Source: Terriglobia bacterium (GTDB taxonomy: Bacteria; Acidobacteriota; Terriglobia; JAIQFV01). Taken from it: a stretch of DNA of 64,000 nt. The stretch covers positions 496,001-560,000 of the forward strand of contig JAIQFV010000001.1 of NCBI GenBank assembly GCA_020073085.1. The letters run 5' to 3'. The notes below the pieces were generated by a model, which was given only the letters and a program-made list of their open reading frames with translations, ran no database searches and was not told the origin of the DNA. Of the stretch, positions 8,453 through 40,802 are shown one piece after another; position 1 is the first letter of the stretch, and each line of letters starts with the position of its first letter. A program made the position numbers and the translations under genes.

Positions 8453-8755
8453 AACCTCTCCTGGCCCAACACCTCGGGCGTACAAGGAATCTTCAAGACC
8501 TGATCGAGACACGATCCCAGCAACACTCATTATCCCACATCAGCTCCCCAGTGCACTGTGAGATGCATAACATGGCCGAACCTTTCTCTCAAGGTAAAGT
8601 TTGAAATGAATGTTCTATGGAAAAGGGGTGGAGATCGCCGATGTGGCGGCTGATGATGCAGACCGCGAGAAGATTGTGATCGCTTGGACTGGACTCCTCA
8701 ACGGAAGGTCCTGGAGGTCCGATCTCTTTTGAGGTCGCCGCTCCGCGAGGGCCCC
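8453..8755. other. intergenic region between pgl and the Rieske operon
   Basis: About 300 bases that must hold the end of the pentose-phosphate operon and the promoter of the Rieske/cytochrome operon, both on the minus strand. I could not identify a clear terminator with a T-run or a confident -35/-10 pair. Confidence 0.4.
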
Positions 8756-12403: not shown

Positions 12404-12428
12404 GATCTCCTCGGTATTCAAATCGGAA

Positions 12429-22378: not shown

Positions 22379-22618
22379 AATGTTGTTCACTGGAGTAAAG
22401 TGTTCTAAAATGCGTTGGAGTGTGTCCCTCCTGATTGGCAGACTTTCCGAGGAGGCGACTCTAATTACCTTTTCGTCATCTTGCACCGAAATCTTTACTT
22501 AGATTCTTTACGAAATTGTCACAACCCAAGTCAAAAGTTCACAAATTGTCTCTTTTTGACCTCCCCGCGCCCCATGAGGTTGCTATTACTTCCTGTTCTC
22601 AAATCATGAGGAGTACCC

Positions 22619-24433: not shown

Positions 24434-27400
24434 ATGCCCCGGAACCTGATAACGAAACGGTACCAGATCGTACGCCCGCTCGGTGAAGGGGGGATGGGTG
24501 AAGTTTTCCTCGTCGAGGATCTTTGGGAAAATGGCCGGCAAGTCGCCCTGAAAAAACTCCAGCGGGGAATTCTCACGGAAGGCACCCGGGAGTTCTTCGT
24601 GCGTGAATTCACCGCACTTAAACAGCTCCGTCACCCCAACCTGTCCTCGGTATATGACTTCGGATATACCGTTCAAGGCGATCCCTTTTTTACCTCCGAG
24701 TACTGTATTGGGGAACATTTGATTACGGGAACGGCCCATATGGGGTTCAGCGAAAAACTGGAGCGTGCCGTCGAGATTTGCCGCGCTCTTACCTACATTC
24801 ATGCGCGAGGCTATATTCATGCAGATTTGAAGCCCGAAAATATCCTGGTTCTGTCCGGCACTCGGCCGGGCGAAGCCAGTATCAAGTTGCTGGATTTTGG
24901 ACTGGCGCGCCATATCGATGACCAGGCAAGGCATCGCTTGAGCGGCACCCTTGCCTATCTCGCCCCCGAGGCCATCAAGGGGCGGCCCTTGGATGCGCGG
25001 TCTGACCTGTATGCCCTTGGGGTAGTCTTCTATCAGCTTTTTAGCCGGCAACTTCCATTTGGTGACATCGATCCTCAATTGCTCGTCGATATGAAGCTGA
25101 ATGTGAATCCTTCGCCACCGACCGAGAAGGATGGAACCCTGCCGCTGGCCATCGACATGATCTTGCTGCGGCTGTTAGAAAGGGATCCTGACAACCGGTT
25201 TCAGACTCCGGATGAGCTGATCAGAGCCTTCAACGAGAACTTGGGTTATCAGTTCGAAATCGAAACACAGGAGACGGCGAGGGACTATGTCCGCAGCGGC
25301 AAGTTCGTTGGACGCGCAAGGGAACAAGCGCAACTGAAGAAGATACTTCAGCAGGTGCTGAAGGCGACCGGTGGGCGCCTCGTTTTGGTGGGCGGAGAGA
25401 GCGGTGTCGGAAAAACACGGCTCCTGGAAGAATTGAAGATTCAAGCTCAGTTAGAAGGGGTCAGGACATTTGCAGGCGCTGCCTACGAGAAAATAACACA
25501 GCCTTTTCAGTGTTTGATTGACGTCCTCCGCCCCATGGTTCTGAGCGCTCAACAAGCAACCTCAGCGCAGCGGGCCTTTTCCGATAAGTACGAAACGGCC
25601 CTGAGCAGGGTTCTTCCCGGCCTTTTTGAAGGCAAACCTCAACCCGCAACGCCCGCCTCTGCGAATGAGAAAGAATTGCTCTTGGAATCACTGGCAGCTT
25701 TCCTGCTGGAAGTCTGTGCAGATCACCCCTCGCTCATTTTGATCCAGGATATTCAGTGGGCCGACGCGCTATCGCTGCAACTCATCGAACGCATCGCCCG
25801 GGGCCTGCAATCCCAGCGCTTGATTCTTGGCGTTAGCTACCGGTCCGAGGAGGTCAAGGGCTCCGCACTTGAGTCGGCATTGCCCGTCCTGAGTGGTCTC
25901 GAATCGAGCGAGACGATAATGGTGAAACCTCTGTCTCCTCACGAGGTCAGCGATCTCGTCAATTCCATGATTGGCACCGAACGCGCCCCTGCGCCCCTGG
26001 TTCAAAGAATTGTGGACGAAACGAAGGGGAATCCCTTTTTTATTCAGGAAGTCATTTGGGCCTGGATGGAAGAAAAGATCCTTTCCCCCAGATCGGGCAC
26101 CTGGGAACCAGAGCCCTCCGTACTGGATTCCCTTCAGGTCCCCCAGACCATGGCTGATGCCTTTCTCCGCCGGATTGGCTATCTCTCCCTCCCTGAGCGA
26201 GACCTGCTTCAGGCTCTCGCACTCTTTATCAAACCCGCTCCCCTCACGGCGGTTTCTTTTGTGTTAAACAGGCCTTTGTCGCAAGTCAAGACGGATCTTG
26301 ACCGACTTGTGGAACGAGCCATCCTCGTCCGAACAGATGCGGCCGAGGACCCCTATTACTTCTTCCAACATACTCAAATGAAGAAGACTGTGGAGACAAG
26401 GGTGCCTCCTGCCAGCCGTCCCTCCATCCATGCGAGGATAGCAAGATACTTTGAAGAACAATCAGGCTCAGGTCTTTCTGATTATTCTGAGATGTTGGCC
26501 TATTACTATTCGATGAGTGGCGATAAGGGGAAGGCAAGGCTTTACTCCATTCGGGCAGGCGACAAACTGCGACAACTTTATTCTTTATCTGAGGCAATTG
26601 TTGCTTACAGACTGGCCGAGGGCTACATCGACCATACAGATATGCGCCGATATGAAATTCGAGAAAAGATCGCCTATTGTTACTACCAGTTGGGTGAGCT
26701 TCCAAGCGCAGAAAAGATATATAGGTCCCTGATCAACGAAGGAGGAACTTTTCTTACTCCCGGCAGGATCGCAAAACTTCACTTACGCCTGGGGATGATT
26801 GCTCAATTTCGGGGCTGTTATACAGAGGCGATCGATATTCTAAATCGAGGTCTAAGTATAATCGAATCCCTACCTGAACCTATGACCAAGGCGGATCTTC
26901 TTGCACGGCTCGGCCTACAACACCAACGATTGACCGACTATCGAACTGCCTTAGAATGTACGAACAAGGGGCTCGCTCTGGTCGAACACCTTGAGAACTA
27001 TTTTGGTCTAGGGGATATCTACAATAGTCAACTGGCCATTTACTTCTACCAAGGTGAATATGGAAAGGCTGTCGAGGCAGGACATCGTGCTATCGCCGTA
27101 TACACAAGATTTGGTTGGACAACTGGAATAGCTGGAGTTACGGCGAATTTAGGAGCAATATATGAAGATTATTTGAATGACTATCGGATAGCATTGCGTT
27201 TTCAACGTCGAGCTCTCCAGCTACGGGAAAAGCTATTTGACCGTCGGGGAATTGAACAGTCTTATGTAAACCTCTCTAGCATCCACACGAAATTGGGCGA
27301 GTATACTACCTCATTGGAATATGTTGATCTTGCTGAGCGCCTTAATAATGTCTTGAGGGACAAACAAATTGAAATCCAAATTTGGCACAATCGAGGGGAG

Positions 27401-29917
27401 AACTGGACACATCTAGGTGAGTTTGTAAAGGGGCGCGACGCTCTAGACAAAGCAATGAGTCTAGCCGAACAGACACACAATCAACAAGTAAGGATTTCTA
27501 TTTTCAATCGCTTGGCTGAATGGCATGAGAAGATGGGAGAAATGCAGGAAGCCCACACCTATGCTCAGAGCGCAGCAGATCTAGCGCTTCATACAGAGAG
27601 CAAACTCGAAGAACTGTTTGCCCGAGTCGCGTTAGCGAGAATTGAAATTGAACAAGAGAAAGTGAGCAGCCGAGACGATTCATTTTCTATTGCTGGTGCC
27701 CTCGCAGAAGAGCTCAACCATAGGGATGGGATACTCCAAGTGGTCCTCCTTCGAGCATTGGTGGACCAAAAGATTAAGTGTTTCGATCATAGCCACAACG
27801 CACTTGATGAAATCGCCTCTCTAGCCGAAGGGACGCAGAACATCCTGTTGAAGGCGCAATTCCATTTATTACGAGGACGATTGGCGCTCGCGAGGAAGGA
27901 TCCCTTTCAGCATTCTGGCGCTGAGGACCTGCACCAAGCTCTTCGTCTTGCAGAATTGACACAGGAAGCTGACTTACTGGCAGAGACGCGGTACTCCTTG
28001 AGTCTTTGGTATCAGGCCCAAGGCGATCCCCATAACGCCGGTGTCCAGGCTCAACATGCGCGGTCCATTATCACAGGGATCGCTGGAAGACTTCCGGAAA
28101 CCCTGAGAAAAAAGTATTTGGAAAAGAAGGAACGGGCCACTATATTAGGATCATTGGAACCCTCGGTGAAAGTCAAGCCGGGGGGCAAGAACTCAATTAT
28201 GACCTCCAAGAACCTGGCTGACCCATTGGTAACCCGTCAGAGTTATTCTGTCACGCTCTTTCAGATCTCCAAGATCGTCAATTCCATCTTGAATCTCAGC
28301 GAGTTGCTCGAACGTGTTATGGATCTGGTACTGGAAGCCATCCGGGTGGAACGCGGTTTGATCCTGCTGGTAGATGAGGTGTCCGGCGAGCTTGAGGTGA
28401 AGGCCGCTCGAAATATCAGCAAGGCCACTCTGGACGACGCCACGGCCATCAGCAAGACAGTGCTCGAAGAAGTTATGCACGGTGGTAAACCCCTGATTTC
28501 AGTAAATGCCCGCGATGATCTGCGTCTTCGGGATCGCCATTCGATCGTCGATTTTGGAATTGGAATGGTGTTATGCATCCCCCTGAAGGTTAAAGAGAGA
28601 ATCGTGGGGGCGGTCTATATTGATAACCCTGTGGCAACCCTCCCATTTAATGAGGAGGAGGTCAACTTCCTCTTATCCTTCACCAATCTCTTCGCTATTG
28701 CAATTGAGAACTCCCGGTTATACGAGAAACTGAGCCTGGAGAACATTTATCTTCGGCAGGAGGTGCGTGGCAAGTATGCGTATGAAAATATTATCGGCCG
28801 AAGCCCCAAGATGATGGATCTGTTCCGAAGGCTGGACAGCGTGGTCAACAGTTCGGCCAATGTCTTGATCTCCGGGGAGAGTGGAACCGGAAAAGAGCTC
28901 ATCGCTCGCGCCATCCATTACAACGGCGCCCGAAAGGAGAAGAGGTTCATCGCCATCGATTGCGGTGCGATCCCTGAAAACCTTATTGAGAGCGAGTTGT
29001 TTGGCTACAAGAGAGGTGCTTTCACTGGAGCTATCTTCGACAAGAAGGGGTTGTTTGAAGAGGCAGACGGGGGCACGATCTTCCTGGATGAAATTACGAA
29101 TACAAGTCGCGCCCTGCAAGCCAAGTTCCTCCGGGTGATCCAGGAGCGAGAGATCCGCAGAGTGGGAGATTCTCAAGACCGCAAAGTGGACGTGCGAATT
29201 ATCGCTGCCACGAATCGGGATCTGAAACAGATGGTTCAGAATGGGGAGTTCCGAGAGGATCTCTTCTACCGGCTCAATGTATTGACCCTTCATGTCCCTC
29301 CTCTAAGAGACCATAAAGAAGACATCCCGTTGCTGGTGAATCATCTCCTTAAGCAGCTTGAACAACAGAATCCCTCGATCCGCCATACCGTTAGTCATGT
29401 TGCCCTTCAAATGTTGATGGAATATCCCTTCCCAGGGAATGTGCGCGAGTTGGAAAACCTTGTGGAAAGCGCCTTTTATATGGCCCAAGAGATTGAAATT
29501 CACGTCCCCGATTTCCCGCCGGAGATTTCTCAGCTCAAAGGGAAACTGGCCACTCAAGAGGCCGCCTTACCGATTCACGCTGTCGAAGACTCACTTCGGC
29601 CGACACTCGCACCTTCCCCTGGCGAGCAAAGGAGCGAGGAAAAGGGACAAGCCCTGGTCTTGTTCCGACGCATGAAGCTGGAAAAGATCTCATTTTGGAA
29701 GATCGTAAAGGAGCCCTTCATGAATAGGGAGATTTCTAAGGAACTGGTACGAGAGATCATCAAAATAGGGTTGGAAGAGTCCCATGGGCGATATAAGGAT
29801 CTCTTGGAGCCGTTTCATTTGAAAGACAGTGAATATACAGTATTTATGAACTTTTTGAAGAAGCATTCCTGTCAAGTTGACTACAAACCTTACCGTCAGA
29901 AAATGTCCTCTGCTTGA
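24434..29917 (+). CDS. Ser/Thr kinase - AAA ATPase - TPR - GAF - sigma-54 activator fusion protein
   Basis: 1827-aa one-protein regulator. Domains: protein kinase, residues about 10-270 (GEGGMGEVF loop, Lys40 in VALKK, HADLKPEN at 129-136 where HRD is usual, DFG at 154-156); predicted ATPase, about 290-560 (GGESGVGKT at 320-328, Walker B LILIQDIQWAD); TPR-like helical repeats, about 690-1120; GAF, about 1283-1424; AAA+ sigma-54 activator, about 1448-1690 (GESGTGKE, GAFTGA at 1528-1533, FLDEI). The last 90 residues are not a Fis helix-turn-helix but a different helical domain (SDxEYTVFMNFLKKH-like) that may bind DNA. The protein could sense signals through kinase/TPR/GAF and open sigma-54 promoters, two candidates for which lie downstream. 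Base composition drops in the TPR part. Confidence 0.92.
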   Translation: MPRNLITKRYQIVRPLGEGGMGEVFLVEDLWENGRQVALKKLQRGILTEGTREFFVREFTALKQLRHPNLSSVYDFGYTVQGDPFFTSEYCIGEHLITGTAHMGFSEKLERAVEICRALTYIHARGYIHADLKPENILVLSGTRPGEASIKLLDFGLARHIDDQARHRLSGTLAYLAPEAIKGRPLDARSDLYALGVVFYQLFSRQLPFGDIDPQLLVDMKLNVNPSPPTEKDGTLPLAIDMILLRLLERDPDNRFQTPDELIRAFNENLGYQFEIETQETARDYVRSGKFVGRAREQAQLKKILQQVLKATGGRLVLVGGESGVGKTRLLEELKIQAQLEGVRTFAGAAYEKITQPFQCLIDVLRPMVLSAQQATSAQRAFSDKYETALSRVLPGLFEGKPQPATPASANEKELLLESLAAFLLEVCADHPSLILIQDIQWADALSLQLIERIARGLQSQRLILGVSYRSEEVKGSALESALPVLSGLESSETIMVKPLSPHEVSDLVNSMIGTERAPAPLVQRIVDETKGNPFFIQEVIWAWMEEKILSPRSGTWEPEPSVLDSLQVPQTMADAFLRRIGYLSLPERDLLQALALFIKPAPLTAVSFVLNRPLSQVKTDLDRLVERAILVRTDAAEDPYYFFQHTQMKKTVETRVPPASRPSIHARIARYFEEQSGSGLSDYSEMLAYYYSMSGDKGKARLYSIRAGDKLRQLYSLSEAIVAYRLAEGYIDHTDMRRYEIREKIAYCYYQLGELPSAEKIYRSLINEGGTFLTPGRIAKLHLRLGMIAQFRGCYTEAIDILNRGLSIIESLPEPMTKADLLARLGLQHQRLTDYRTALECTNKGLALVEHLENYFGLGDIYNSQLAIYFYQGEYGKAVEAGHRAIAVYTRFGWTTGIAGVTANLGAIYEDYLNDYRIALRFQRRALQLREKLFDRRGIEQSYVNLSSIHTKLGEYTTSLEYVDLAERLNNVLRDKQIEIQIWHNRGENWTHLGEFVKGRDALDKAMSLAEQTHNQQVRISIFNRLAEWHEKMGEMQEAHTYAQSAADLALHTESKLEELFARVALARIEIEQEKVSSRDDSFSIAGALAEELNHRDGILQVVLLRALVDQKIKCFDHSHNALDEIASLAEGTQNILLKAQFHLLRGRLALARKDPFQHSGAEDLHQALRLAELTQEADLLAETRYSLSLWYQAQGDPHNAGVQAQHARSIITGIAGRLPETLRKKYLEKKERATILGSLEPSVKVKPGGKNSIMTSKNLADPLVTRQSYSVTLFQISKIVNSILNLSELLERVMDLVLEAIRVERGLILLVDEVSGELEVKAARNISKATLDDATAISKTVLEEVMHGGKPLISVNARDDLRLRDRHSIVDFGIGMVLCIPLKVKERIVGAVYIDNPVATLPFNEEEVNFLLSFTNLFAIAIENSRLYEKLSLENIYLRQEVRGKYAYENIIGRSPKMMDLFRRLDSVVNSSANVLISGESGTGKELIARAIHYNGARKEKRFIAIDCGAIPENLIESELFGYKRGAFTGAIFDKKGLFEEADGGTIFLDEITNTSRALQAKFLRVIQEREIRRVGDSQDRKVDVRIIAATNRDLKQMVQNGEFREDLFYRLNVLTLHVPPLRDHKEDIPLLVNHLLKQLEQQNPSIRHTVSHVALQMLMEYPFPGNVRELENLVESAFYMAQEIEIHVPDFPPEISQLKGKLATQEAALPIHAVEDSLRPTLAPSPGEQRSEEKGQALVLFRRMKLEKISFWKIVKEPFMNREISKELVREIIKIGLEESHGRYKDLLEPFHLKDSEYTVFMNFLKKHSCQVDYKPYRQKMSSA

Positions 29918-30185
29918 GCGCTTGCCGAAACGCATCACTCGGCCTCAACCCTTCCACAAGTCAGCGATCAATCCCTGATCTGCCAGTTCGAGTCAATTCC
30001 ATCAACAAGTCTCAGGTCACACGTAGTTTAATTTTCATAAATAAATCACCGCTGGAGATTATAATCATTTCTTTTGATTAGTTATTCTAGTTTTAATTCT
30101 GTATTCATTTCACAATTCATCATCGAAACAAGCACTAAGACACTTTGTTTGAGTTGTTTATATAAATTTTTAGAAAGAACAAGGA

Positions 30186-30201
30186 TTGGCACTAGTCGTG
30201 T
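30186..30201 (+). promoter_or_regulatory. possible sigma-54 promoter upstream of the peptide gene
   Basis: TTGGCAC (30186-30192) matches the -24 element exactly. Ten bases after the GG there is GT (30200-30201) where GC is expected, so the -12 element is weak. Transcription would start near 30213, giving a 250-base leader for the peptide at 30463. Confidence 0.4.
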
Positions 30202-30226
30202 ACATATCAAAGGCAATTAGCTTTGG

Positions 30227-30247
30227 AGAGTTGAGAAGATCAACTCT
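30227..30247 (+). repeat. perfect 8-bp inverted repeat in the leader
   Basis: AGAGTTGA (30227-30234) and TCAACTCT (30240-30247) around a 5-base spacer. It would form an RNA hairpin just after the predicted start of transcription, or serve as a protein-binding site. Confidence 0.55.
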
Positions 30248-30302
30248 GGAGACGTAGAAAAGGTACCTTCGCTTCTCCGCTCATAGTACTCCTCAGTGAC
30301 GA

Positions 30303-30330
30303 GGGGAGGGGGAGACGGGGACGAGGGGGG
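30303..30330 (+). other. G-quadruplex motif in the peptide leader
   Basis: Four G-runs of 4, 5, 4 and 6 residues (30303-30306, 30308-30312, 30317-30320, 30325-30330) are separated by loops of 1, 4 and 4 bases. This satisfies the canonical intramolecular quadruplex pattern on the coding strand, so both DNA and mRNA could fold. Confidence 0.65.
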
Positions 30331-30337
30331 CCCGAAG

Positions 30338-30356
30338 CGGGAAACCCAAGTTCCCG
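30338..30356 (+). repeat. hairpin following the G-quadruplex
   Basis: CGGGAA (30338-30343) pairs with TTCCCG (30351-30356) across a 7-base loop. A competing CCCG/CGGG pairing (30331-30341) overlaps it, so alternative folds are possible. Confidence 0.45.
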
Positions 30357-30462
30357 TCAACCACAAGATCTCAGTTTGACCCCAAAAGAAACGGACAGGG
30401 TTTTGGAGTTTGATAAGCGCTTGGTGCAATTGAAGTTGCTGATTTTTGAGGAGGAAACAAAA

Positions 30463-30537
30463 ATGGAAGAGAATCTGGTTCTTGAGGTTGAGGAGCTTGA
30501 GGAAATAGTCGCTCCCAACATCCTCTGGGGTGTATAA
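30463..30537 (+). CDS. 24-aa peptide, candidate precursor or signal peptide
   Basis: A short ORF with one of the strongest ribosome binding sites in the window (GAGGAGGAA, 30448-30456, spacing fits the ATG at 30463). The product has an acidic Glu/Leu-rich first part (MEENLVLEVEELEE) and a hydrophobic C-terminal tail after Ala-Pro, ending NILWGV. This leader-plus-short-core layout fits secreted or post-translationally modified peptides. It is followed by a nested hairpin and, 418 bases on, by a PqqD-like/M50/HlyD gene of the kind that matures and exports peptides. The tail resembles the NIIWG and NLLWG units of the subtilisin at 34181. Short ORFs can arise by chance, but ribosome binding site, composition and context support it. 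Confidence 0.62.
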   Translation: MEENLVLEVEELEEIVAPNILWGV

Positions 30538-30654: not shown

Positions 30655-30858
30655 ATGAAGAAGCCCACAAAGAAAGCAAAGATTCTAACTCTTTTGACCT
30701 TGATGCTTGAGATAACGCTTATCTGCGTGGTCGGTCCCCGGTATTTAACACTACTTCTGTTTTTATCTCTCCTAAGCAGCCTTGGAATTCTTGCTGCAAA
30801 ATCCGAATTGTCTCTTTTGTCCCACTCCAGGTCGGGCAGGCGCAATTCAATTTATTGA
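30655..30858 (+). CDS. possible small membrane protein
   Basis: 67-aa ORF between the peptide and the M50 gene. Basic N-terminus (MKKPTKKAKI), then two hydrophobic stretches (LTLLTLMLEITLICVV and YLTLLLFLSLLSSLGILAA) and a basic tail, as in a small two-helix membrane protein. There is no clear ribosome binding site and no recognised family. If real, it may be an accessory or immunity-type protein of the peptide system; that role is only inferred from position. Confidence 0.35.
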   Translation: MKKPTKKAKILTLLTLMLEITLICVVGPRYLTLLLFLSLLSSLGILAAKSELSLLSHSRSGRRNSIY

Positions 30859-30955: not shown

Positions 30956-33346
30956 ATGGAATCTTCTAATCATCCAAAATTGCGGCGCGATTTGATCATT
31001 ACCGAACAGGGTGAGGGGGATCAGACCGCGTACATTATAAAGGACCCCCAATCGAGAAAATTCTTTCGATTGAGGCAACACGAATTCCTGATCGCGAGTC
31101 AATTTGAGGGGAAGCTGACCATCGCCCAGCTTGCGACTCATTTCAAGGAAGAGCTCCATCTCAATGTCAATGCAGAAGGGCTTTCAGACTTCGTGGAGAA
31201 GCTGGGCGCGAAGGGCCTGCTTGAGACATCTGGACAGGAAACAACTCAAACTGGGCAACCCGTTCTGCCGCCTCTTGCCAACTGCTCGCCCCACCCTTCG
31301 TTTTCGCGTGAAAATAAGCGGCGTTCCCGATTGGACAGATTGCTGTATTGGAAGATTGCCTATTTCGATCCCGATGCATTCTTCAACCGGCTATTGCCGC
31401 ACTTCAGGTTTCTCTTCACGTCGGCCTTCTTCCTGCTCGTTGTCGCCACGATCCTGGCTGCAGCGTGTGTGACTGCATACAATTGGGATGAAATCACGGA
31501 TCAGATTCAAACCCTCTATTCAACCGCCTCCGTCCTCTGGGCACTCATTATCATGATGCCAATTCTTATCCTTCATGAGATGGCCCATGGCATGACCTGC
31601 AAATACTTCGGGGGAGAGGTACACGAGATGGGATTTCTCCTCTTGTACTTCCAGCCTGCATGCTTCTGCAATGTCAGCGACAGCTATGTTTTCAAGAAAA
31701 GATCTCAGCGCCTCTGGGTGATGGCCGCCGGCGTATTCATCCAGACTTTCCTCTGGGCTGTCCTCACACTTCTGTGGCGAATATTGGCTCCCGAGAGCTT
31801 GATCGCCCGATTCATCTTTATCAATGTTGCGGTCACAGGGTTCGTGACGATTCTGCAATTCAATCCGCTGATTAAGCTTGACGGGTACTACATTCTGTCC
31901 GAGCTTTTTTCAATCCCGAATCTGCGGGCGAAGTCCTTTGCCTGGCTTCGGGCGAAGGCAAGATCATTCATGACAGGAACTTCGGGTGCAATAAAAGGGC
32001 TTTCGCGGAGGGATCGGATGATTTATTGGCTCTATGGAATGATCGCTTTCATCTATTCATTCGGTTTAATCAAATACGTTATTCTCAGGGTTGAGCAGTT
32101 TTTTGTTGAGCAATATCAAGGAACAGGTTTTATACTGTTTTGGGGTGTCGCATTGTTCGTAGTAAGCGACCCGTTGATCCAGGCGATTGGACATGTCCAT
32201 TCCAAGAAAATGACCGAGAAGAAACAGAGCGCGTCGAAGCACAAGAATCTTTTTGTCACCGGTTTTTTTTGCCTGTGCGGGTGTCTCGTGCTTACCCTGG
32301 GCCGATGGGAGCTCAAGGTGGCCAGCGAGTGTACCCTGATCCCCTATGAACGGGCCGAGGTAAGAGCAGAGGTTCCCGGAACCATTGAGCGGATCTATTT
32401 CGACGAAGGGCAGGCCGTACACAAGGGTGACGTCATCGCCCGTCTTGCTGATTACAAGTACAGCGGGGAGAAGGCCAAGACTTCGGCTGACATTTCGGAA
32501 GCCCAGGCGCGGCTTCAACTGATGGTGGTGGGTCCTTCGAAGGAAGAGATCGCTTTGGGGCAGTCTCAAGTCGATCGCGCAGAGGCCTCCATCAGAAAGG
32601 CTGAAGCCCAAGCTCCAATTGCCCGCGAACGGCTGGATTATGCGAACAAGAATTTTGAGCGGGTAAAACGCCTTTTTGACGAAAAGCTCCTCGCTTCGAT
32701 GTCATTCGATGAAGCCGAGCGTGATCTCAACATTCGAAAGCGAGAATTCGACGAGGTTCAGCACGACGTCGAGGAGAAACGAAGACTCTACCAGGAGGCC
32801 CGCAAGGCCCTGGCCAAGGTGATGGCGGGGACACGCGCGGAAGAAATCGAGGCGAAGCGGGCTGAGATCGAAGGACTGGTCTCCCAGCGGACCCTGCTTG
32901 ATACGGAGAGTACCTATACCGCAATCCGAAGTCCCATTGACGGCATCATTACAACGCATTTTCTCAAGCAGCAGGAAAAGGCCTACCTGGAACAGGGTGA
33001 CGTGATCTGCCAGGTAGCAAACACTCGGAAGATACTTACCGAAATCCCCGTTCCCGAAAAAGAGGTGGGGGATGTGAAGATCGGGTTCTACGTGCGACTA
33101 AAGGCTAACGCATATCCCAGCAAAGAGTTTGATGGGAAGGTCACGCAGATCTCTGATATCGCCGATCCGCAAGATAAGAATGTGCGAATCCTCATAGTCA
33201 GAAGCGAGATTGACAACCCGAATTTTCTTTTAAAACCTGAAATGACGGGTTACGCCAAGATATATTGTGGAAAACGAACCATTGGAGAACTTGTCACCCG
33301 GAGGTTGGTAAGATTTATTCGCACGGAATTCTGGTCTTGGTTCTGA
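30956..33346 (+). CDS. PqqD-like / M50 metalloprotease / HlyD-like peptide maturation-export protein
   Basis: 796 aa. Residues 1-90 look like a PqqD-type winged helix (AYIIKDPQSRKFFRLRQHEF... LTIAQLATHF... FVEKLGAKGLLE), the fold used as RiPP recognition element. Residues about 140-450 are a multi-helix M50 intramembrane protease with zinc motif HEMAH (207-211) and NPLIKLDGYY (from 303). After a last helix near 425, residues 465-780 form a HlyD-type periplasmic adaptor: lipoyl-like halves (VRAEVPGTIERIYFDEGQAVHKGDVIA) around a long coiled coil (about 510-640). Such fusions, like YydH-type peptide zinc metalloproteases, act on small secreted peptides. No ABC ATPase is next to it. The preceding 24-aa peptide is the natural candidate substrate. 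Confidence 0.9.
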   Translation: MESSNHPKLRRDLIITEQGEGDQTAYIIKDPQSRKFFRLRQHEFLIASQFEGKLTIAQLATHFKEELHLNVNAEGLSDFVEKLGAKGLLETSGQETTQTGQPVLPPLANCSPHPSFSRENKRRSRLDRLLYWKIAYFDPDAFFNRLLPHFRFLFTSAFFLLVVATILAAACVTAYNWDEITDQIQTLYSTASVLWALIIMMPILILHEMAHGMTCKYFGGEVHEMGFLLLYFQPACFCNVSDSYVFKKRSQRLWVMAAGVFIQTFLWAVLTLLWRILAPESLIARFIFINVAVTGFVTILQFNPLIKLDGYYILSELFSIPNLRAKSFAWLRAKARSFMTGTSGAIKGLSRRDRMIYWLYGMIAFIYSFGLIKYVILRVEQFFVEQYQGTGFILFWGVALFVVSDPLIQAIGHVHSKKMTEKKQSASKHKNLFVTGFFCLCGCLVLTLGRWELKVASECTLIPYERAEVRAEVPGTIERIYFDEGQAVHKGDVIARLADYKYSGEKAKTSADISEAQARLQLMVVGPSKEEIALGQSQVDRAEASIRKAEAQAPIARERLDYANKNFERVKRLFDEKLLASMSFDEAERDLNIRKREFDEVQHDVEEKRRLYQEARKALAKVMAGTRAEEIEAKRAEIEGLVSQRTLLDTESTYTAIRSPIDGIITTHFLKQQEKAYLEQGDVICQVANTRKILTEIPVPEKEVGDVKIGFYVRLKANAYPSKEFDGKVTQISDIADPQDKNVRILIVRSEIDNPNFLLKPEMTGYAKIYCGKRTIGELVTRRLVRFIRTEFWSWF

Positions 33347-33733
33347 TTCCTCCCTTTTATTCGTCCACATCTCCCTTTACTGCGTCATCAGGGGGCTGCT
33401 GAGTCTCCGGTCCGGCCCTCTTCTGGGCTAACCCTAACATCCCCCCTGTAAACCACTCGTAGAAAGCCGCCTTCTGCCTTCCTCTACGCCTCGACCCGTT
33501 GTGGTAATTATGGGACTCGGCTCTCTCTCATGTCATATCTAATTGGGTATCGTCGATTGGAGTCTGCTCGCTGGTAGAAATCGATTCCGGGCATTCATTT
33601 CGGCGACCGAGAAGTCCTCCTCCAAATTCCATCCTCAGATGCCGTGAGGGTCTTCCTTCACCTTGAGATTTACCTAAGGTTGATCTTTCTTCCTATCAAA
33701 GCACAACCCTTCGGGACCGAACTCAAATTCTTA

Positions 33734-33775
33734 ATTTCAGTCAGATTGACTGAAATGCTGTCGGTCATTTTGACC
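33734..33775 (+). promoter_or_regulatory. tandem palindromes, candidate enhancer sites for a sigma-54 activator
   Basis: First site: ATTTCAGTCA (33734-33743) and TGACTGAAAT (33747-33756), a perfect 10-bp inverted repeat around GAT. Second: GGTCA (33763-33767) and TGACC (33771-33775) around TTT. Both share GTCA-N3-TGAC; their centres are 24 bases apart and lie about 119 and 95 bases before the predicted transcription start, the usual position for activator binding. Confidence 0.62.
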
Positions 33776-33836
33776 AAAAGCCTGAGGGTTTGGGCGTTCC
33801 TCCTTCGTAACCCATTGAAATCCCTCAGTGCAAAGC

Positions 33837-33853
33837 TTGGTGCACAGGTTGCT
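33837..33853 (+). promoter_or_regulatory. sigma-54 promoter (-24/-12)
   Basis: TTGG (33837-33840), exactly ten bases, then GC (33851-33852) inside a perfect TTGCT -12 element. The conserved GG-N10-GC spacing is met; the TGGCAC box is TGGTGC here. Transcription would start near 33864, ahead of the 69-aa ORF (33939) and the subtilisin. Confidence 0.65.
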
Positions 33854-33938
33854 GAACTGTAACTGCAGTAGCGCCCATGCTCAGACTGTTTCACGACTGG
33901 AAAGTGGGACGATTAACCCAATCTAAGGAGGAAATTCG

Positions 33939-34148
33939 ATGGCTCCAAACAAATCAGGAAGCCGCGATCAAAAGGGCGGAGACCGCATTCGAAAGAATCA
34001 GCCGTTGCGGTCATTCGGATCGATTGGAGATCTTGAATTCAATTCAATGACCTTTCGTGGTGCGCGTCTGGTTTGGAATTCTCCCGGCCCAGCGGAGTTC
34101 CAGCCGATCTTCTCTTTAGGCGAATCAAGCCAGTTCTTCGTCGAATGA
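33939..34148 (+). CDS. 69-aa protein of unknown function upstream of the subtilisin
   Basis: Short ORF with an excellent ribosome binding site (TAAGGAGGAAA ahead of the ATG). The N-terminal third is basic and Gly/Ser/Asn-rich (MAPNKSGSRDQKGGDRIRKN); the rest contains Phe/Trp and Pro-Gly (ARLVWNSPGPAEFQPIF). No signal peptide or known domain. It starts 75 bases after the predicted sigma-54 transcription start and ends 32 bases before the subtilisin start, so it is the first gene of that operon. It could be a substrate, inhibitor or second secreted peptide; nothing in the sequence decides this. Confidence 0.55.
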   Translation: MAPNKSGSRDQKGGDRIRKNQPLRSFGSIGDLEFNSMTFRGARLVWNSPGPAEFQPIFSLGESSQFFVE

Positions 34149-34180: not shown

Positions 34181-36076
34181 ATGCGATACCAACATCTTAT
34201 TCTCAGGCTCCTCATGGTCGCAGTGTTATCGCTGCCAATGCTTTGCTTTGGCGGAGGTTTGGACAAACTGGACGGATCCCTGCGCGAGAGGGTAAGGCGC
34301 GGAGAGCGCGGCACTATCCCGATCATCATCCGGACCGCCCTCGTGCCGGCCGATTCAAACCGTTCAAAATCGCGGCTTAACCAGGCCCTCTACGATAGGA
34401 TTGAAGGACATCGAGGACGGGTCAAAAAGGAATTCTGGGCGATCGATGGCCTCGCAGCTGAGGCAGAGGTCACGGAACTGGAGGGACTTGCCCAGACACC
34501 CGGCATCGAAGGAATCTCGGAAGATCATGTGGTGAGGCCATCGAATGACATTACTGTCAAGTCCGTCGGCGCGGACATTGCCCGGATGAGTTATGGGGTC
34601 GAAGGTGATGGTGTTGGGATCGCTGTGCTGGATTCCGGCGTATCTCCCCATGGCAAAGACCTGGATGGCTCTCGACGGATCGGCAGCCGGATTCTCGCTC
34701 AATGGAGCACCGTTGGATTGGATGGCAACGCCATGGCGAACGCCGGGTCGATGGACGACAGTTATGGCCATGGGACCCATGTCGCTGGGATCATTGCTGG
34801 CAATGGAGATGAATCCGGAGGAGCGCTTTCGGGGATCGCACCGAAGGCGAAAATCATCAGCGTCAAGGTCTTGGGGGATGACGGATCGGGTTATGTAAGT
34901 GATGTCATCGAAGGGATCCAATGGGTAATTCAAAACAAACTTAAATACAACATTCGAATCATCAACCTTTCACTGGGGCATCCGGTTTCGGAATCCTACA
35001 AAACGGATCCTCTCGCCCAAGCCTGTGAGGCCGCTGTCAGAGCCGGCATTGTCGTTGTCGTCGCGGCGGGCAACTACGGTAAGGATGAGTTTGGGAAGAT
35101 CGTGTATGGCGGAATTACCAGCCCCGGTAACGATCCCCAGGTGATAACTGTCGGTGCGGCGAAGTCCCAAGGGACGCCCGCCCGTTCCGACGACGCTATC
35201 GCGGATTATAGTTCGCGAGGACCCACAGCTCTCGACCTCCTTTCCAAGCCGGACTTGGTTGCCACCGGAAACCGGGTGAAGTCGATCGCAGATCCGAGCA
35301 CCAATAAGAACGATCTCTTCGATCTCTACCCCCAGAACCGTGTGGACCCGTCTTATTACACTCAGGCTGGAGGGACCGAGATCAAAAAGGTCCACTACTT
35401 CATTTTGAGCGGAACGTCCATGGCAACCGCGGTGGTATCAGGGACAGTTGCGCTGATGCTCCAAGCCCAGCCTCATCTCACTCCCAATTTGGTTAAGGCA
35501 ATCCTCATGGTGACGGCGCAGGACCTGCGACTGCCCTTCGTGGTTCAAGGGGCAGGCTACTTGAACACTCTTGGGGCGGTGATGCTTGCACGAAACGTCT
35601 CGGCAACCAGGGCCCCCCTGGGTTCTTCGCAGCTTCTTGATAATGGAAGAGCCTTGAGCACACAGAACACAATCCAGGGAGAAACTGTCAATTGGGGAGG
35701 CAATATCATTTGGGGAGAAAACCTGCTGTGGGGTGGAATCATCGAGAGCAATTTAGCGATATGGAGCACTCAGGTGGCCTGGGGCAGCGGCAATGTCATT
35801 TGGAGCAATGGCAATGTCTTATGGAGCAGTGGTAACATGCTCTGGGACAGTGGAAATGTGCTGTGGAGCAATGGAAATGTGCTGTGGAGTAACAGTGTCA
35901 TCTGGGGAGGAAACTTTATAACTGGCGGAAGCTATATCGGAGCAAGTGCCGCGCAATCACTCAATCCCTTGCTAGTATCCAGGTCGTTGTGGAGTTCTGA
36001 CTTTTGTGGAGGGATGTCGGTGACAACCAGTGGAAACGTGATATGGAGTTCTTCAGCCTTAATATCAGGGGAGTAG
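34181..36076 (+). CDS. secreted subtilisin-like serine protease (S8) with Trp-rich C-terminal repeats
   Basis: 631 aa from the Met at 34181 (GGAG upstream), which begins a signal peptide (MRYQHLILRLLMVAVLSLPMLCFG); the longer frame to 34073 overlaps the 69-aa ORF. An I9-like propeptide (about 30-115) precedes the catalytic domain: Asp151 (IAVLDSGV), His197 (GHGTHVAG), the oxyanion region VVVAAGNYG and Ser413 (SGTSMATAVVSG). After residue 500 comes a Trp/Gly/Asn/Ser repeat tail (NIIWGENLLWGG... then five GNVLWSN-type units) that may form a beta-solenoid or adhesive region. Repeats of NxxW type occur at the ends of other bacterial S8 proteases. It lies under the sigma-54 promoter. Confidence 0.92.
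   Translation: MRYQHLILRLLMVAVLSLPMLCFGGGLDKLDGSLRERVRRGERGTIPIIIRTALVPADSNRSKSRLNQALYDRIEGHRGRVKKEFWAIDGLAAEAEVTELEGLAQTPGIEGISEDHVVRPSNDITVKSVGADIARMSYGVEGDGVGIAVLDSGVSPHGKDLDGSRRIGSRILAQWSTVGLDGNAMANAGSMDDSYGHGTHVAGIIAGNGDESGGALSGIAPKAKIISVKVLGDDGSGYVSDVIEGIQWVIQNKLKYNIRIINLSLGHPVSESYKTDPLAQACEAAVRAGIVVVVAAGNYGKDEFGKIVYGGITSPGNDPQVITVGAAKSQGTPARSDDAIADYSSRGPTALDLLSKPDLVATGNRVKSIADPSTNKNDLFDLYPQNRVDPSYYTQAGGTEIKKVHYFILSGTSMATAVVSGTVALMLQAQPHLTPNLVKAILMVTAQDLRLPFVVQGAGYLNTLGAVMLARNVSATRAPLGSSQLLDNGRALSTQNTIQGETVNWGGNIIWGENLLWGGIIESNLAIWSTQVAWGSGNVIWSNGNVLWSSGNMLWDSGNVLWSNGNVLWSNSVIWGGNFITGGSYIGASAAQSLNPLLVSRSLWSSDFCGGMSVTTSGNVIWSSSALISGE
35789..35893 (+). repeat. five tandem 21-bp repeats encoding GN(V/M)(I/L)W(S/D)(N/S)
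   Basis: Units begin at 35789, 35810, 35831, 35852 and 35873, each seven codons. They are related at protein level with several synonymous changes, so the array is old or under protein-level selection. Looser WG units flank it on both sides. Confidence 0.85.
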
Positions 36077-36163: not shown

Positions 36164-38641
36164 GTGTCTAAAAGACCTCTCCAAAACATATCTCTTCTTG
36201 ATCTCTACATCTTCGTCACGTCAGTTACAGGGGCATACTTTCTCGTAAATGCGGCCATTCACGCCCGCTATATCACGTATTGGAAAGAACTGCTGATACT
36301 CGGAACTCTTGGGGCTGTCTCGGCTTCAGTTAAGGTTATCCTTCCCTCGTCAAAAGGTACGATCTCGATTGCATATGCTTTTGTATTCACGAGCATGCTT
36401 CTGTTAGGAACACAAGAAACTATCTTGATCGCTGCAATCTGTGCCTTCACTGGGTATGCTGTACAGGTCAAGGAGTTTCGGACGCACCAGCTTGCCTTTA
36501 ATGTTGGCAATCTAGTTGTTTGTGTGATGGTCGCATGCTATGCAATTCGAATTCTCAACGCCGATGTGTTTTGGTTCCGAAACAGCTTTCAGATACTCCC
36601 AATTATTACTGCAACTTCAATCTATTTTGTTCTCAATTCCTTCATGGTTGGCCTTGTCATTTCCCTTAGTGAATCGAAAGGATTTCGGCGCATTTGGCTG
36701 GAGAACTTCTACTGGACCGCTCCCAGTTTTTATGTGGGGGCATCCATCGCTTGGGCGCTGACGGTCTTTTATCAGCGGTATGGAATTGCCGTTATCTTCC
36801 TTGCTCTTCCCCCTCTGTACCTCACATATTTCACTCACAAGATGTACATGGCCCGTCTGGAAGAGAGTCATTTGCACCTGCGTGACATGGCCGATCTTCA
36901 TTTGCGCACCATTGAAACTCTGGCCCTGGCCATTGATGCAAAAGACGAAACGACGCATCTGCATTTGCAACGGGTCCGCATCTTTGCGACGGGGCTTGGC
37001 AGGGCATTGAACCTGAGTGATGACGAACTCAATTCTATCAAGGCAGGGGCACTGCTTCATGATGTGGGCAAGCTGGCGGTGCCGGAATACATCCTCAACA
37101 AACCGGGGAGACTGACGCCGGAAGAATTTAACCGCATGAAGGTTCACCCTCTGGTCGGAGCAGAGATTCTCTCCGCAGTCAATTTCCCTTATCCTGTTGT
37201 GCCGGTGGTCCTGTGTCATCATGAAAGATACGATGGCACCGGATACCCAAACGGACTGGCAGGAGAAGAGATCCCTATTACAGCCCGCATCCTCTCTGTG
37301 GTGGATTGCTTCGATGCGCTTGCTTCAGATCGCCCCTACCGCCGGGCCTTGCCTCCCGAAGAGGCGATGAAATATATCCATGAACAGAAGGGAAAGGCAT
37401 TCGATCCAAAGATCGTCGAACTCTTTGAGAGCCTTTATCCCACCCTTGAGCAAGAAGCCCGGGCTGCGGCGCTGGAAGCCCACCGGATCTCTGCCAATCT
37501 CCCCTCCTTTTCGCTCCAAACGAATCCCAAGGGGGCGCTGGCGCACCCGGCGACCGGATACAGCGAGACCACCCAGATCCATCATCTTCGAAACATCGCC
37601 GCTGCCAACCAAGAGGTTTATTCGCTGTATGAACTCATCCAAACGGTGGGCACCAGTCTCAATCTTGTTGAGACGTTGAACCTCATCGCCTCAAAAATCA
37701 GAAAGGTGATTCCCTGCGATTGTTGCGTTGCCTATTTGCGCCAGGACGAGACGCTTGTGCCCCAATACATAGACGGGAAGGAGAAAGAAACCTTCTCTGA
37801 CCTTGCCATCCCTCTGGGAGAAGGAATTACCGGCTGGGTGGCTGAGAACAAACGGCCTCTGATCAATTCCAATCCGCTGGTGGAATTCGGGTACCTGGGC
37901 AATGCGGCGCGGTTCACTCTGATGCGGTCCGCCCTATCCGTGCCCCTTAAGGTGAATGAAGAGGTTCTCAGCGTCATCACTCTTTATGATGAAACCCCCA
38001 ACAAGTTCGTGGGAGACAACCTTCGGGTGCTGGAGCTCATTGCTTCCAAGACCGCGCTCGCCATCAAGAATGCGATTACCTTTGAGCAAACCTATGAAAA
38101 CTCCCTGACGGATGATTTGACCGGCCTTCCCAATTCGCGGCATATGTTCCTCAAGCTGGATGAGGAAATCGCGAGAGCCCGCCGAAACGGGACCGCCCTC
38201 ACCGTTCTGGCTATGGACCTGAACTCCTTCAAGGAAGTGAATGACACTTTTGGACACTCCGTCGGCGACAAGGTGCTTCGCCAGATTGGGAAGTATTTGA
38301 GAAGTACACTGCGCGACTACGACTTTGTGGCCCGTCTCGGGGGAGACGAATTTATGGCTGCCCTGCCGGGACTTCTCGGAGAGGATATCAACAAGAAAAT
38401 TCAACAGGTGCAAGCCGCCATCGAAGGGATTCAGTCCGAAAAACGGTTCGGCCGGTTTATTAAACTCTCGCTCAGCATCGGATCCGCCACTTTCCCCCAG
38501 GACGGAAACGACGCCGACACCTTGCTGTCTGTCGCCGACTCGCGCATGTACGCCAACAAATTCACGCAAAAGAAACGTCGCCAGCAGATTGAATTCGCCA
38601 TGGATACTTCCGAAGAAGAGAGATCGTTTCCAATTCAATGA
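36164..38641 (+). CDS. membrane-bound HD-GYP / GAF / GGDEF protein
   Basis: 825 aa from a GTG start with AAGGAAGAAG upstream. The first 230 residues are about eight hydrophobic helices, a likely sensor domain. HD-GYP phosphodiesterase follows, about 250-420 (HD at 299-300 in LLHDVGKLAVP, HHERYDGTGYPNGL). Then GAF, about 490-650 (LGEGITGWVAENKRPL), and a diguanylate cyclase, about 655-815, with an intact GGDEF (726-730). It can in principle both make and break c-di-GMP, with GAF and membrane inputs. The membrane part is more AT-rich than the rest. It closes the plus-strand island before a strong terminator. Confidence 0.93.
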   Translation: MSKRPLQNISLLDLYIFVTSVTGAYFLVNAAIHARYITYWKELLILGTLGAVSASVKVILPSSKGTISIAYAFVFTSMLLLGTQETILIAAICAFTGYAVQVKEFRTHQLAFNVGNLVVCVMVACYAIRILNADVFWFRNSFQILPIITATSIYFVLNSFMVGLVISLSESKGFRRIWLENFYWTAPSFYVGASIAWALTVFYQRYGIAVIFLALPPLYLTYFTHKMYMARLEESHLHLRDMADLHLRTIETLALAIDAKDETTHLHLQRVRIFATGLGRALNLSDDELNSIKAGALLHDVGKLAVPEYILNKPGRLTPEEFNRMKVHPLVGAEILSAVNFPYPVVPVVLCHHERYDGTGYPNGLAGEEIPITARILSVVDCFDALASDRPYRRALPPEEAMKYIHEQKGKAFDPKIVELFESLYPTLEQEARAAALEAHRISANLPSFSLQTNPKGALAHPATGYSETTQIHHLRNIAAANQEVYSLYELIQTVGTSLNLVETLNLIASKIRKVIPCDCCVAYLRQDETLVPQYIDGKEKETFSDLAIPLGEGITGWVAENKRPLINSNPLVEFGYLGNAARFTLMRSALSVPLKVNEEVLSVITLYDETPNKFVGDNLRVLELIASKTALAIKNAITFEQTYENSLTDDLTGLPNSRHMFLKLDEEIARARRNGTALTVLAMDLNSFKEVNDTFGHSVGDKVLRQIGKYLRSTLRDYDFVARLGGDEFMAALPGLLGEDINKKIQQVQAAIEGIQSEKRFGRFIKLSLSIGSATFPQDGNDADTLLSVADSRMYANKFTQKKRRQQIEFAMDTSEEERSFPIQ

Positions 38642-38722: not shown

Positions 38723-38776
38723 GATCCGCTCTTGTTTTCCGTTCATAATTCTCCAGACGCCCGATATAATCGCAGC

Positions 38777-39748
38777 ATGCTCCGTCGACTCGCTCCCCGG
38801 ATCCTTGCCTCTATCCCCCTCCTGTTCGGAGTCACCCTTCTTTCATTTCTGTTGATGCACACGGCCCAGGGCGATTTTCTTTCTTCGATGCAGTTGAATC
38901 CCCAGATTGATCCCGCCACAATTGAGACCGCACGTACAAAATTCGGGTTGAATCTCCCCTGGTACGTACAATACTTCAAATGGATTGCGCAAATCTCCCG
39001 GGGAAATTTCGGGTACTCGTTTGCCTATCAGCAGCCGGTCACCGAGATCATCGGATCGTATGTCGCCAACACGCTTTTACTTTCCGTCACTGCGCTTTTC
39101 CTCGCGTTGATTGCGGCATTGCCGTTGGGGATTCTCTGTGCTGTTAAAAGAAACTCGTGGATAGATCGGGCCGTCCATCTGGTCTCCTCGGTCGGTGTGT
39201 CGCTGCCCACGATCCTCCTCGCCCTCTTCGCTGTTCTGTTCGCAGCAAAGACGGGTTGGTTCCCCATCGGAGGCCGCGAGCGGCTGGATGCCGCAGAACT
39301 GGGTTGGTTCGCCCATGGCCGGGATCTGCTTCATCACCTTGTTCTGCCGGCCATGGTCCTGGCGGTCAATCCGGCCATTGTCTATTTTCGACAGACTCGC
39401 AGCAACCTCTCCGCCGTATTGGACGATCCGTTCATCATGACAGCACGTGCCAAAGGACTGGGGCCTCTTCACATTCTATTGCGTCATGCCATGCGCAATG
39501 CACTGAACCCCCTCATATCGCTTTTTGGGTTTTCAGTCGCAAACCTGCTAAATGGGGCCTTCCTTGTGGAGATCATTATGTCCTGGCCCGGCTTGGGTCG
39601 ACTGACCTACGAGGCCCTTCTCAGTCGCGATTTATACCTTGTGATGGGTTCTCTTACATTGGCTTCACTGATGTTGATTGGGGGAAATTTGTTGGCTGAC
39701 TTTTTGATGGCGTGGAATGATCCAAGGATAAAAGTCAGCTCTATGTAG
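38777..39748 (+). CDS. oligopeptide-type ABC transporter permease (DppB-like)
   Basis: Inner-membrane permease, 323 aa from the Met at 38777 (MLRRLAPRILASIPLLFGVT), where homology begins; the frame extends to 38732. Six hydrophobic helices, an N-terminal TMD0-type segment and the family's cytoplasmic EAA-like loop (TARAKGLGPLHILLRHAMRNALNPLIS). The next gene is the DppC-like partner. With the lipoprotein at 22619 it could form one importer, although they are 14 kb apart and no ATPase gene is in the window. Confidence 0.9.
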   Translation: MLRRLAPRILASIPLLFGVTLLSFLLMHTAQGDFLSSMQLNPQIDPATIETARTKFGLNLPWYVQYFKWIAQISRGNFGYSFAYQQPVTEIIGSYVANTLLLSVTALFLALIAALPLGILCAVKRNSWIDRAVHLVSSVGVSLPTILLALFAVLFAAKTGWFPIGGRERLDAAELGWFAHGRDLLHHLVLPAMVLAVNPAIVYFRQTRSNLSAVLDDPFIMTARAKGLGPLHILLRHAMRNALNPLISLFGFSVANLLNGAFLVEIIMSWPGLGRLTYEALLSRDLYLVMGSLTLASLMLIGGNLLADFLMAWNDPRIKVSSM

Positions 39749-39821: not shown

Positions 39822-40802
39822 ATGGGAGCGGAACCTCCTGATATGAAGAGAACCCTCCTTTGGAATCAAAAAATGCTCTGGGGATCCGCCCTTCTCCTTC
39901 TCTTCATCCTGGTCGCCTTGGGTGCCGACTTTGTGGCGCCCTATCCCCCTTCCAATCAGTATCGGACGTCATTCAACTCGGCGCCCTTCTCGGACAGCGC
40001 GCGGGCCGACGGTGCTCCTCCGTCAATCCGTTTGTTTGTCGCCGCGGATTCATACCGATGGCTTGGATTTCTTCCATCGCGGCGGCACCTCTTCGGCTCT
40101 CAGGAGGGAAAGCCGATTTTCCTTCTTGGAAGCGACGAATTCGGACGTGATATCTTCTCACGCCTGGTCTTTGGGGCACGGATCTCGCTTCTCGTCGGTT
40201 TCCTCGGGGTTGCCATCTCTTTCTTCGTGGGGATGTTGCTGGGGGGAATCTCGGGGTTCGTGGGAGGTTGGATTGACCAGATGACCATGCGCGGTTCGGA
40301 GCTGTTCATGGCGCTGCCCGGCCTTTATCTGCTCCTGACCCTGCGATCCGTATTTCCCAAACAACTTTCCCCAACAGCGAGCTTTTTTCTAATCATCAGC
40401 ATTCTCTCCCTGGTGAACTGGGGTTCGATTGCCCGCGTCATCCGCGGAATGGTTCTTTCGTTACGAGAAAACGATTTTGTCGAGGCAGCCCGGGCAGTGG
40501 GTGCTTCAAGAGCACGGGTCCTTACCCGGCATATCCTCCCCAACACTGCTCCTTTTCTGCTGACTCAAGCGTTGTTAAGCATTCCATATTACATTTTGGG
40601 CGAAATTGCCCTATCGTTCCTGGGATTGGGAATTCAAGAACCCAATCCAAGCTGGGGCAACATGCTGGCCTCAGCCCTGGATATCACCGCCCTCACGGAA
40701 CGACCGTGGATTCTTGCGCCCGGTGCTGCCATCTTTTTGGTCGTGTTGGCCTTCAACCTATTTGGGGAAGGGTTGAACGACGCATTCAAGCCCAGAAGGT
40801 AG
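39822..40802 (+). CDS. oligopeptide-type ABC transporter permease (DppC-like)
   Basis: Second permease, 326 aa; an internal Met at 39843 (MKRTLLWNQKMLWGS) is an equally good start. It has an N-terminal helix, then a periplasmic insert, LLGSDEFGRDIFSRLVFGARISLLVG (the DppC/OppC hallmark), and the EAA loop (EAARAVGASRARVLTRHILPN). C-terminal FGEGLNDAFKPRR is typical. 73 bases separate it from the DppB-like gene. The neighbouring amino-sugar genes raise the possibility that muropeptides are the cargo. Confidence 0.92.
   Translation: MGAEPPDMKRTLLWNQKMLWGSALLLLFILVALGADFVAPYPPSNQYRTSFNSAPFSDSARADGAPPSIRLFVAADSYRWLGFLPSRRHLFGSQEGKPIFLLGSDEFGRDIFSRLVFGARISLLVGFLGVAISFFVGMLLGGISGFVGGWIDQMTMRGSELFMALPGLYLLLTLRSVFPKQLSPTASFFLIISILSLVNWGSIARVIRGMVLSLRENDFVEAARAVGASRARVLTRHILPNTAPFLLTQALLSIPYYILGEIALSFLGLGIQEPNPSWGNMLASALDITALTERPWILAPGAAIFLVVLAFNLFGEGLNDAFKPRR

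Follow-up and report, generated by a model that had tools for sequence, protein, structure and literature searches.

Sigma-54 promoters carry the consensus TGGCAC-N5-TTGCW, and the sites of bEBP activators are dyad-symmetric, often more than one in number, and lie some 80–200 bp upstream. NorR is a Fis-type activator. One NorR report places tandem GT-(N7)-AC palindromes just upstream of a sigma-54 promoter (PMC1274295), and another treats the role of the NorR GAF domain (PMC2941729). A Clostridiales survey gives the sigma-54 promoter consensus as TTGGCATNNNNNTTGCT, assigns a single target operon to 170 of 263 activators and locates most activator sites 100–250 bp upstream (PMC6615313). Among peptide maturation systems, daptide precursors have an invariant C-terminal Thr (PMC10036551).

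Here we describe a promoter-like element in a 64,000-nucleotide stretch of DNA (the window) from a Terriglobia bacterium, a soil acidobacterium. We consider it probable that this element is a real classical sigma-54 promoter, most likely switched by a neighbouring kinase-TPR-GAF-AAA+ protein. The element type is already known, namely NorR-type tandem palindromes before a sigma-54 promoter: the NorR promoters of norVW, norAB and Vibrio hcp-hcr likewise combine tandem GT-(N7)-AC sites with a GAF-containing AAA+ activator, and GTCAGATTGAC and GTCATTTTGAC of the present locus fit that form. However, the NorR regulon has three tandem sites next to norR, whereas the present locus has two; the NorR targets act in NO detoxification, whereas a small open reading frame (ORF), a subtilase and c-di-GMP enzymes follow here; and the candidate activator, unlike NorR, fuses kinase, TPR and GAF parts to a C-terminal domain that has no Pfam match to a Fis-type helix–turn–helix (HTH). 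The locally encoded activators of the Clostridiales have one target operon, a nearby gene and more than one site, as proposed here, but they carry Fis-type HTH domains. Within the terms searched, we found no description of this locus in open-literature titles and abstract openings. The context of a tiny peptide and a PqqD-M50-HlyD exporter is more interesting than the element type itself.

Architecture of the predicted promoter

The initial annotation had proposed two GTCA-N3-TGAC palindromes and a GG-N10-GC core with a perfect TTGCT box, and both are present in the sequence. Palindrome 1 (33734–33756), a proposed upstream activator site, reads ATTTCAGTCA-GAT-TGACTGAAAT with perfect 10-bp arms and is centred at 33745, about −119 from the predicted start. 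Palindrome 2 (33763–33775), also a proposed activator site, reads GGTCA-TTT-TGACC with 5-bp arms and is centred at 33769, about −95. The two centres are 24 bp apart (~2.3 helical turns), and the GTCA-N3-TGAC centre is the sole part common to these palindromes of unequal length. The −24/−12 element, TGGTGCACAGGTTGCT, occupies 33838–33853 on the plus strand, with GG at 33839–33840, GC at 33851–33852, N10 in between and an intact TTGCT, and differs from TGGCAC-N5-TTGCW at two positions. A TAACCC block (33808–33813, plus strand) lies between the palindromes and the core.

The palindromes precede the −24 GG by 64 and 88 bp, closer to the promoter than the lower limit of the Clostridiales range. The placement of the predicted dyads at about −95 and −119 fits the expectation for bEBP upstream activator sites. 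Transcription would start at ~33864, within a conserved stretch (33854–33872, plus strand).

Conservation of the palindromes and the core

Conservation was assessed in three genomes: the source genome and the only two relatives compared that have the locus, a Terriglobia MAG of the same genus (JAIQFY010000005.1; G001) and a member of another genus of the same family (JAQUPQ010000010.1; G002). Gene order is retained in both. In G001, the palindromes and the core form islands of 89–95% identity, whereas the surrounding spacer is about 60–70% identical. Thus, 42 of 46 columns agree in the palindrome block and 16 of 18 in the core, compared with 239 of 400 farther upstream in the spacer, 39 of 56 between the palindromes and the core, and 37 of 54 in the leader after the start region; in the stretch around the predicted start, 18 of 19 columns are the same. 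Palindrome 2 is identical in G001 (GGTCATTTTGACC), palindrome 1 is also kept, and the core counterpart is TGGCGTACAGGTTGCT.

The G002 comparison spans a greater distance, with orthologous proteins 58–76% identical and a spacer that is scarcely alignable. Palindrome 1 nevertheless appears there as GTCAAACTGAC and palindrome 2 as GGTCAATTGGACC, with one mismatch; GTCAATTGGAC lies 23 bp after GTCAAACTGAC, and the core TGGAGAATTCATTGCT follows. The TGG-N8-TTGCT pattern recurs, with little of the consensus kept between TGG and TTGCT. The TAACCC block is identical in all three aligned genomes, the palindromes are spaced 24, 24 and 23 bp apart, and the distance from the palindrome start to GG is 99 bp in all three. 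The palindromes, whose presence at orthologous loci the initial annotation had made a test of its proposal, are therefore kept together with the core in both relatives that have the locus.

Rarity of the layout

Taken by itself, the core match is at chance level for the window: the bare core with at most two mismatches occurs 29 times against 28.6 expected, and the exact TGG-N8-TTGCW three times (3073, 1584 on the minus strand, and 33838) against a shuffle mean of 5.2. The minus-strand match at 1584–1599 lies outside the larger ORFs and has no exact GTCA-N3-TGAC nearby. The palindrome on its own is mildly enriched, with three occurrences in the window against 0.95 expected, the third at 29871 within the kinase gene, and 137 places genome-wide against 51 for the reversed pattern, a rough control.

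By contrast with the core alone, the combined layout is not chance. In 300 dinucleotide-preserving shuffles, the window never yielded the tandem palindromes or the full layout. When the 592-bp spacer was shuffled 20,000 times, a palindrome 50–200 bp before a core appeared in four shuffles and two palindromes within 40 bp in none; across the three orthologous spacers, each shuffled 20,000 times, the former count was 4, 2 and 0, and the exact 99-bp palindrome-to-GG distance was never reproduced.

Across the 5.79-Mb assembly, a search for GTCA-N3-TGAC with GG-N8-TTGC 60–90 bp downstream returned six matches at five places, two of which are the present site and four of which fall within long open frames. 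This genome-wide search, which the initial annotation had suggested, thus yielded no other match outside long open frames. Tandem palindromes are present in 24 of the 399 genomes searched in the class, and one locus was examined in each of these 24. GG-N8-TTGC lies within 300 bp downstream of the tandem palindromes at four of the 24 loci, and at 64 bp only in the source genome and G001; at the other two, the distance is 130 bp in one, and 26 and 66 bp within a 40-bp repeat array in the other. Several loci of this survey in other genomes, L123 and L129 among them, are GTCATCCTGAC/GTCAGGATGAC repeat arrays that are apparently unrelated to sigma-54 sites.

Genes flanking the predicted promoter

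The promoter probably drives a protease and signalling operon. Its first gene would be a previously unlisted ORF of 69 residues (33939–34148, plus strand), preceded by a strong AAGGAGG ribosome site at 33925–33931. This ORF is 86% identical in G001 and has a shorter resemblance in G002, where FRGARxxWN...EFQP is kept; 99 of 101 genomes gave no match. It is followed on the same strand by an S8 subtilase with a signal-like N terminus (34181–36076; PF00082, 1.6e-53) and by a protein with a MASE9-like membrane region and HD-GYP, GAF and GGDEF domains (36164–38641), with a probable role in c-di-GMP turnover. Two peptide-type ABC transporter permeases (38732–39748 and 39822–40802, both plus strand), assigned from their translations and synteny, come next, the first as a probable continuation of the operon; the transcript probably extends to include them. 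The subtilase ends in NVLWSNG-type repeats, which resemble the NVIW/NILW/VVW motif common in the tiny peptides described below, although a link between the two would be a guess.

Upstream on the plus strand, a gene for an oligopeptide-binding, Opp4A-like lipoprotein (22619–24415) ends 18 bp before the kinase gene. Beyond the kinase gene lies a gene, overlooked like the 69-residue ORF in the initial annotation, for a 24-residue peptide (MEENLVLEVEELEEIVAPNILWGV; 30463–30537) with a strong GAGGAGG ribosome site. The peptide resembles a RiPP precursor, albeit a very short one; its orthologues are 82% and 73% identical, and an EEL..AP stretch is present in all of its relatives in G001, G002, G026, G019, G004, G060 and G033. 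A candidate in G066 contains an internal stop and was judged to be a chance match. The adjoining PqqD-like, M50 intramembrane protease and HlyD fusion (30956–33346) likely serves peptide maturation and export, and its first half resembles the daptide metalloprotease (NF041824; 1e-58, 199 bits, under the 300-bit cut-off). Daptide loci (MpaA/MpaP) similarly pair an acidic EEL...AP-like leader with an M50 protease that has a PqqD/RRE-like part (PMC10036551). The present peptide, however, has 24 residues and ends in NILWGV without the C-terminal Thr of daptides, and the exporter is, unlike that of daptide loci, fused to HlyD; neither score reaches its NCBIfam cut-off.

A small membrane ORF of 67 residues (30655–30858) separates the peptide gene from the exporter gene, and a similar one can be discerned at the corresponding position in G002. 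A G-rich tract that precedes the peptide gene (30240–30380) is nearly unchanged in G001 and has no Rfam match; at gathering scores, no Rfam family, and hence no riboswitch before the peptide gene, was matched in the whole window. Inspection by eye of 29918–30462 and its counterparts in G001 and G002 for a sigma-54 promoter of the peptide gene gave two candidates, both rejected: TTGGTGCAATTGAAGTTGCT is wrongly spaced, and TGGCACTAGTCGTGTA (30187, two mismatches) lacks the −12 GC.

RpoN and the candidate activators

A single RpoN is encoded in the genome, and its TRRTVAKYRE, which we take to be the RpoN box, is intact; absence of rpoN had been named as grounds for discarding the promoter. The presence of rpoN, together with the conservation at orthologous loci, supports the earlier assignment of a classical layout for an AAA+ activator of sigma-54. 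The genome holds 25 strong matches to the sigma-54 AAA+ domain, with four more being weak. Two of these activators are encoded in the window, as the initial annotation had stated, at 24434–29917 (plus strand) and 20924–22486 (minus strand), and the former, a kinase fusion of 1,827 residues, is by position the nearer. It comprises Ser/Thr kinase, AAA_16, TPR, GAF and sigma-54 AAA+ domains (PF00158, 1.4e-73; GAFTGA within GYKRGAFTGA) and a variant C-terminal domain, and its orthologues are 82% and 58% identical. The latter is a response regulator of 520 residues with a sigma-54 AAA+ domain (GSFTGA).

The C-terminal domain of the kinase fusion (29657–29914, plus strand) is a proposed DNA-binding domain at the place where a Fis-type HTH usually sits. 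Its 86 residues, the last of the protein, match no Pfam family, HTH_8 included. AlphaFold gave a confident helical model (pLDDT 87) with helices at residues 28–41, 46–50 and 57–69. Alignment with eight Fis-type HTHs by hhalign covered 33 columns (E 6e-4, with a probability of only 28). Foldseek returned 25 weak matches, several of them to HTH proteins (best E 4.2), and VIA-align reached Z≥2 for two of 30 chains, both metal-dependent regulators (best Z 2.3). A Fis-type structure is absent among the fold matches listed, which is not evidence against a Fis-type fold. Sequence searches of solved structures gave two matches each, unrelated and with E of at least 0.045. The GPMC system transcriptional regulator family (NF038230) matched 11 of 12 sequences of the domain weakly (best 4.7e-6), far under its 1200-bit cut-off, and in the first sequence the match covered residues 5–43 of 89.

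The source genome has one copy of this domain; of 61 genomes, the 12 that carry it all belong to two families. In all seven sequences read, it ends a sigma-54 AAA+ protein, and several of these proteins depart from GAFTGA (GAFTTA, GSYTGA and GAYTGA). Because of this position and the profile and structure results, we think that it is a divergent DNA-binding domain; by fold comparison of the model, an HTH reading is weak. Over the 12 sequences, the residues F16, W17, V20, R27, L42, G47, Y49, F56, Y63, F66, M67, F69, L70, C75, D78 and R83 are invariant.

Proposed mechanism and alternatives

We propose that sigma-54 RNA polymerase would sit at TGG-N8-TTGCT, while dimers of an AAA+ activator would bind the two compact palindromes ~95 and ~119 bp upstream. 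The bound activator would assemble into a ring and open the promoter through ATP hydrolysis, and the transcript from near 33864 would encode the 69-residue protein, the S8 subtilase, the HD-GYP/GGDEF protein and probably the peptide transporter permeases. The kinase-TPR-GAF-AAA+ protein may act through its non-standard C-terminal domain, as a dedicated one-target switch within a peptide maturation and export locus. In this scheme, we infer the binding, the identity of the activator, the start site, the extent of the operon and the signal. Given a true promoter, the kinase protein is the likely activator; we favour it because it is adjacent and syntenic, has a canonical GAFTGA and carries a single-copy C-terminal domain, and its pairing with the promoter is strengthened, without proof, by the synteny and the unusual domain.

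The main rival for this role is the response regulator at 20924–22486, which, or else another activator, might bind the palindromes at a true sigma-54 promoter while the kinase protein acts elsewhere or binds no DNA. It has a clear Fis-type HTH (PF02954), and the Fis-type NorR uses GT-(N7)-AC sites (PMC1274295), a form that the present palindromes fit; the number of strong AAA+ matches in the genome also leaves room for other activators. In G001, a 90% identical orthologue has been kept next to the locus, but the 65% identical relative in G002 is on a different contig (C50), and the gene itself is divergent and ~11 kb away. Moreover, the layout is found at one place in the genome only, as expected for a dedicated local activator. 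We judge this alternative to be a minority possibility, and a further point bears on the kinase protein: its relatives in three genomes of the sister family (G019, G026 and G033) share its C-terminal domain, yet their counterparts of the locus have no recognizable palindromes or core, which argues against our main reading.

It is very improbable that the palindromes are instead operators of a small dimeric HTH repressor or activator and that the −24/−12 match is fortuitous. Compact dyads of this size would fit many dimeric regulators, and the chance-level frequency of the core alone favours such a match. However, three genomes retain core and palindromes together at exactly the same distance, the −12 TTGCT is invariant while the intervening region varies, and no sigma-70-type promoter is among those listed for the plus strand of 33346–33939. 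The lack of enrichment of the core alone would also favour pure coincidence with no promoter present, but the conserved islands in two relatives and the shuffle results oppose this reading, to which we give almost no credence.

As a sigma-54 promoter switched by the kinase protein, the element would give a very large kinase-type activator, from a phylum that has received little study, a concrete output open to testing, and would provide a defined 40-bp target for asking whether the Pfam-less C-terminal domain binds DNA. It would also link a locus of tiny peptides, an exporter, a protease and c-di-GMP enzymes.

A possible peptide circuit and a sister family

A more speculative extension, which we regard as doubtful, is a self-contained peptide-signal circuit in which the 24-residue peptide is cut by the M50 protease, exported, re-imported and sensed by the kinase activator, which drives the promoter and the c-di-GMP enzymes. 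The PqqD-M50-HlyD protein would cut the peptide after its EEL..AP leader and export it, with the secreted subtilase perhaps trimming it. The short core NILWGV would then re-enter through the oligopeptide-binding protein and the permeases, and the kinase-TPR-GAF activator would sense it and act through an undescribed family of DNA-binding domains. The sister family would instead control its peptide gene through c-di-GMP riboswitches.

This sister family clusters the tiny EEL..AP peptide with PqqD-M50-HlyD, HD-GYP/GGDEF and kinase activator genes, most fully in G019 and G026. With strict patterns, no plausibly placed palindromes or sigma-54 core were found at the loci of G019, G026, G033, G004 and G047. 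The matches at these loci, which we do not count as support, were two palindromes at 2711 and 3346 in G026, far from the genes; a G033 core at position 736 of contig 486, in an apparent coding region that ends upstream of the exporter gene, ~690 bp away from it; one minus-strand core in G026; and one core in G033 inside the activator gene.

At L073, the locus of G019, no c-di-GMP-I riboswitch passed the threshold. In G026, by contrast, two such riboswitches lie in front of the peptide gene, and in G004 there is one. The riboswitches before these tiny-peptide genes, at 8399–8680 of locus L072 (minus strand) and at 12343–12456 of locus L075, are next to HD-GYP/GGDEF genes.
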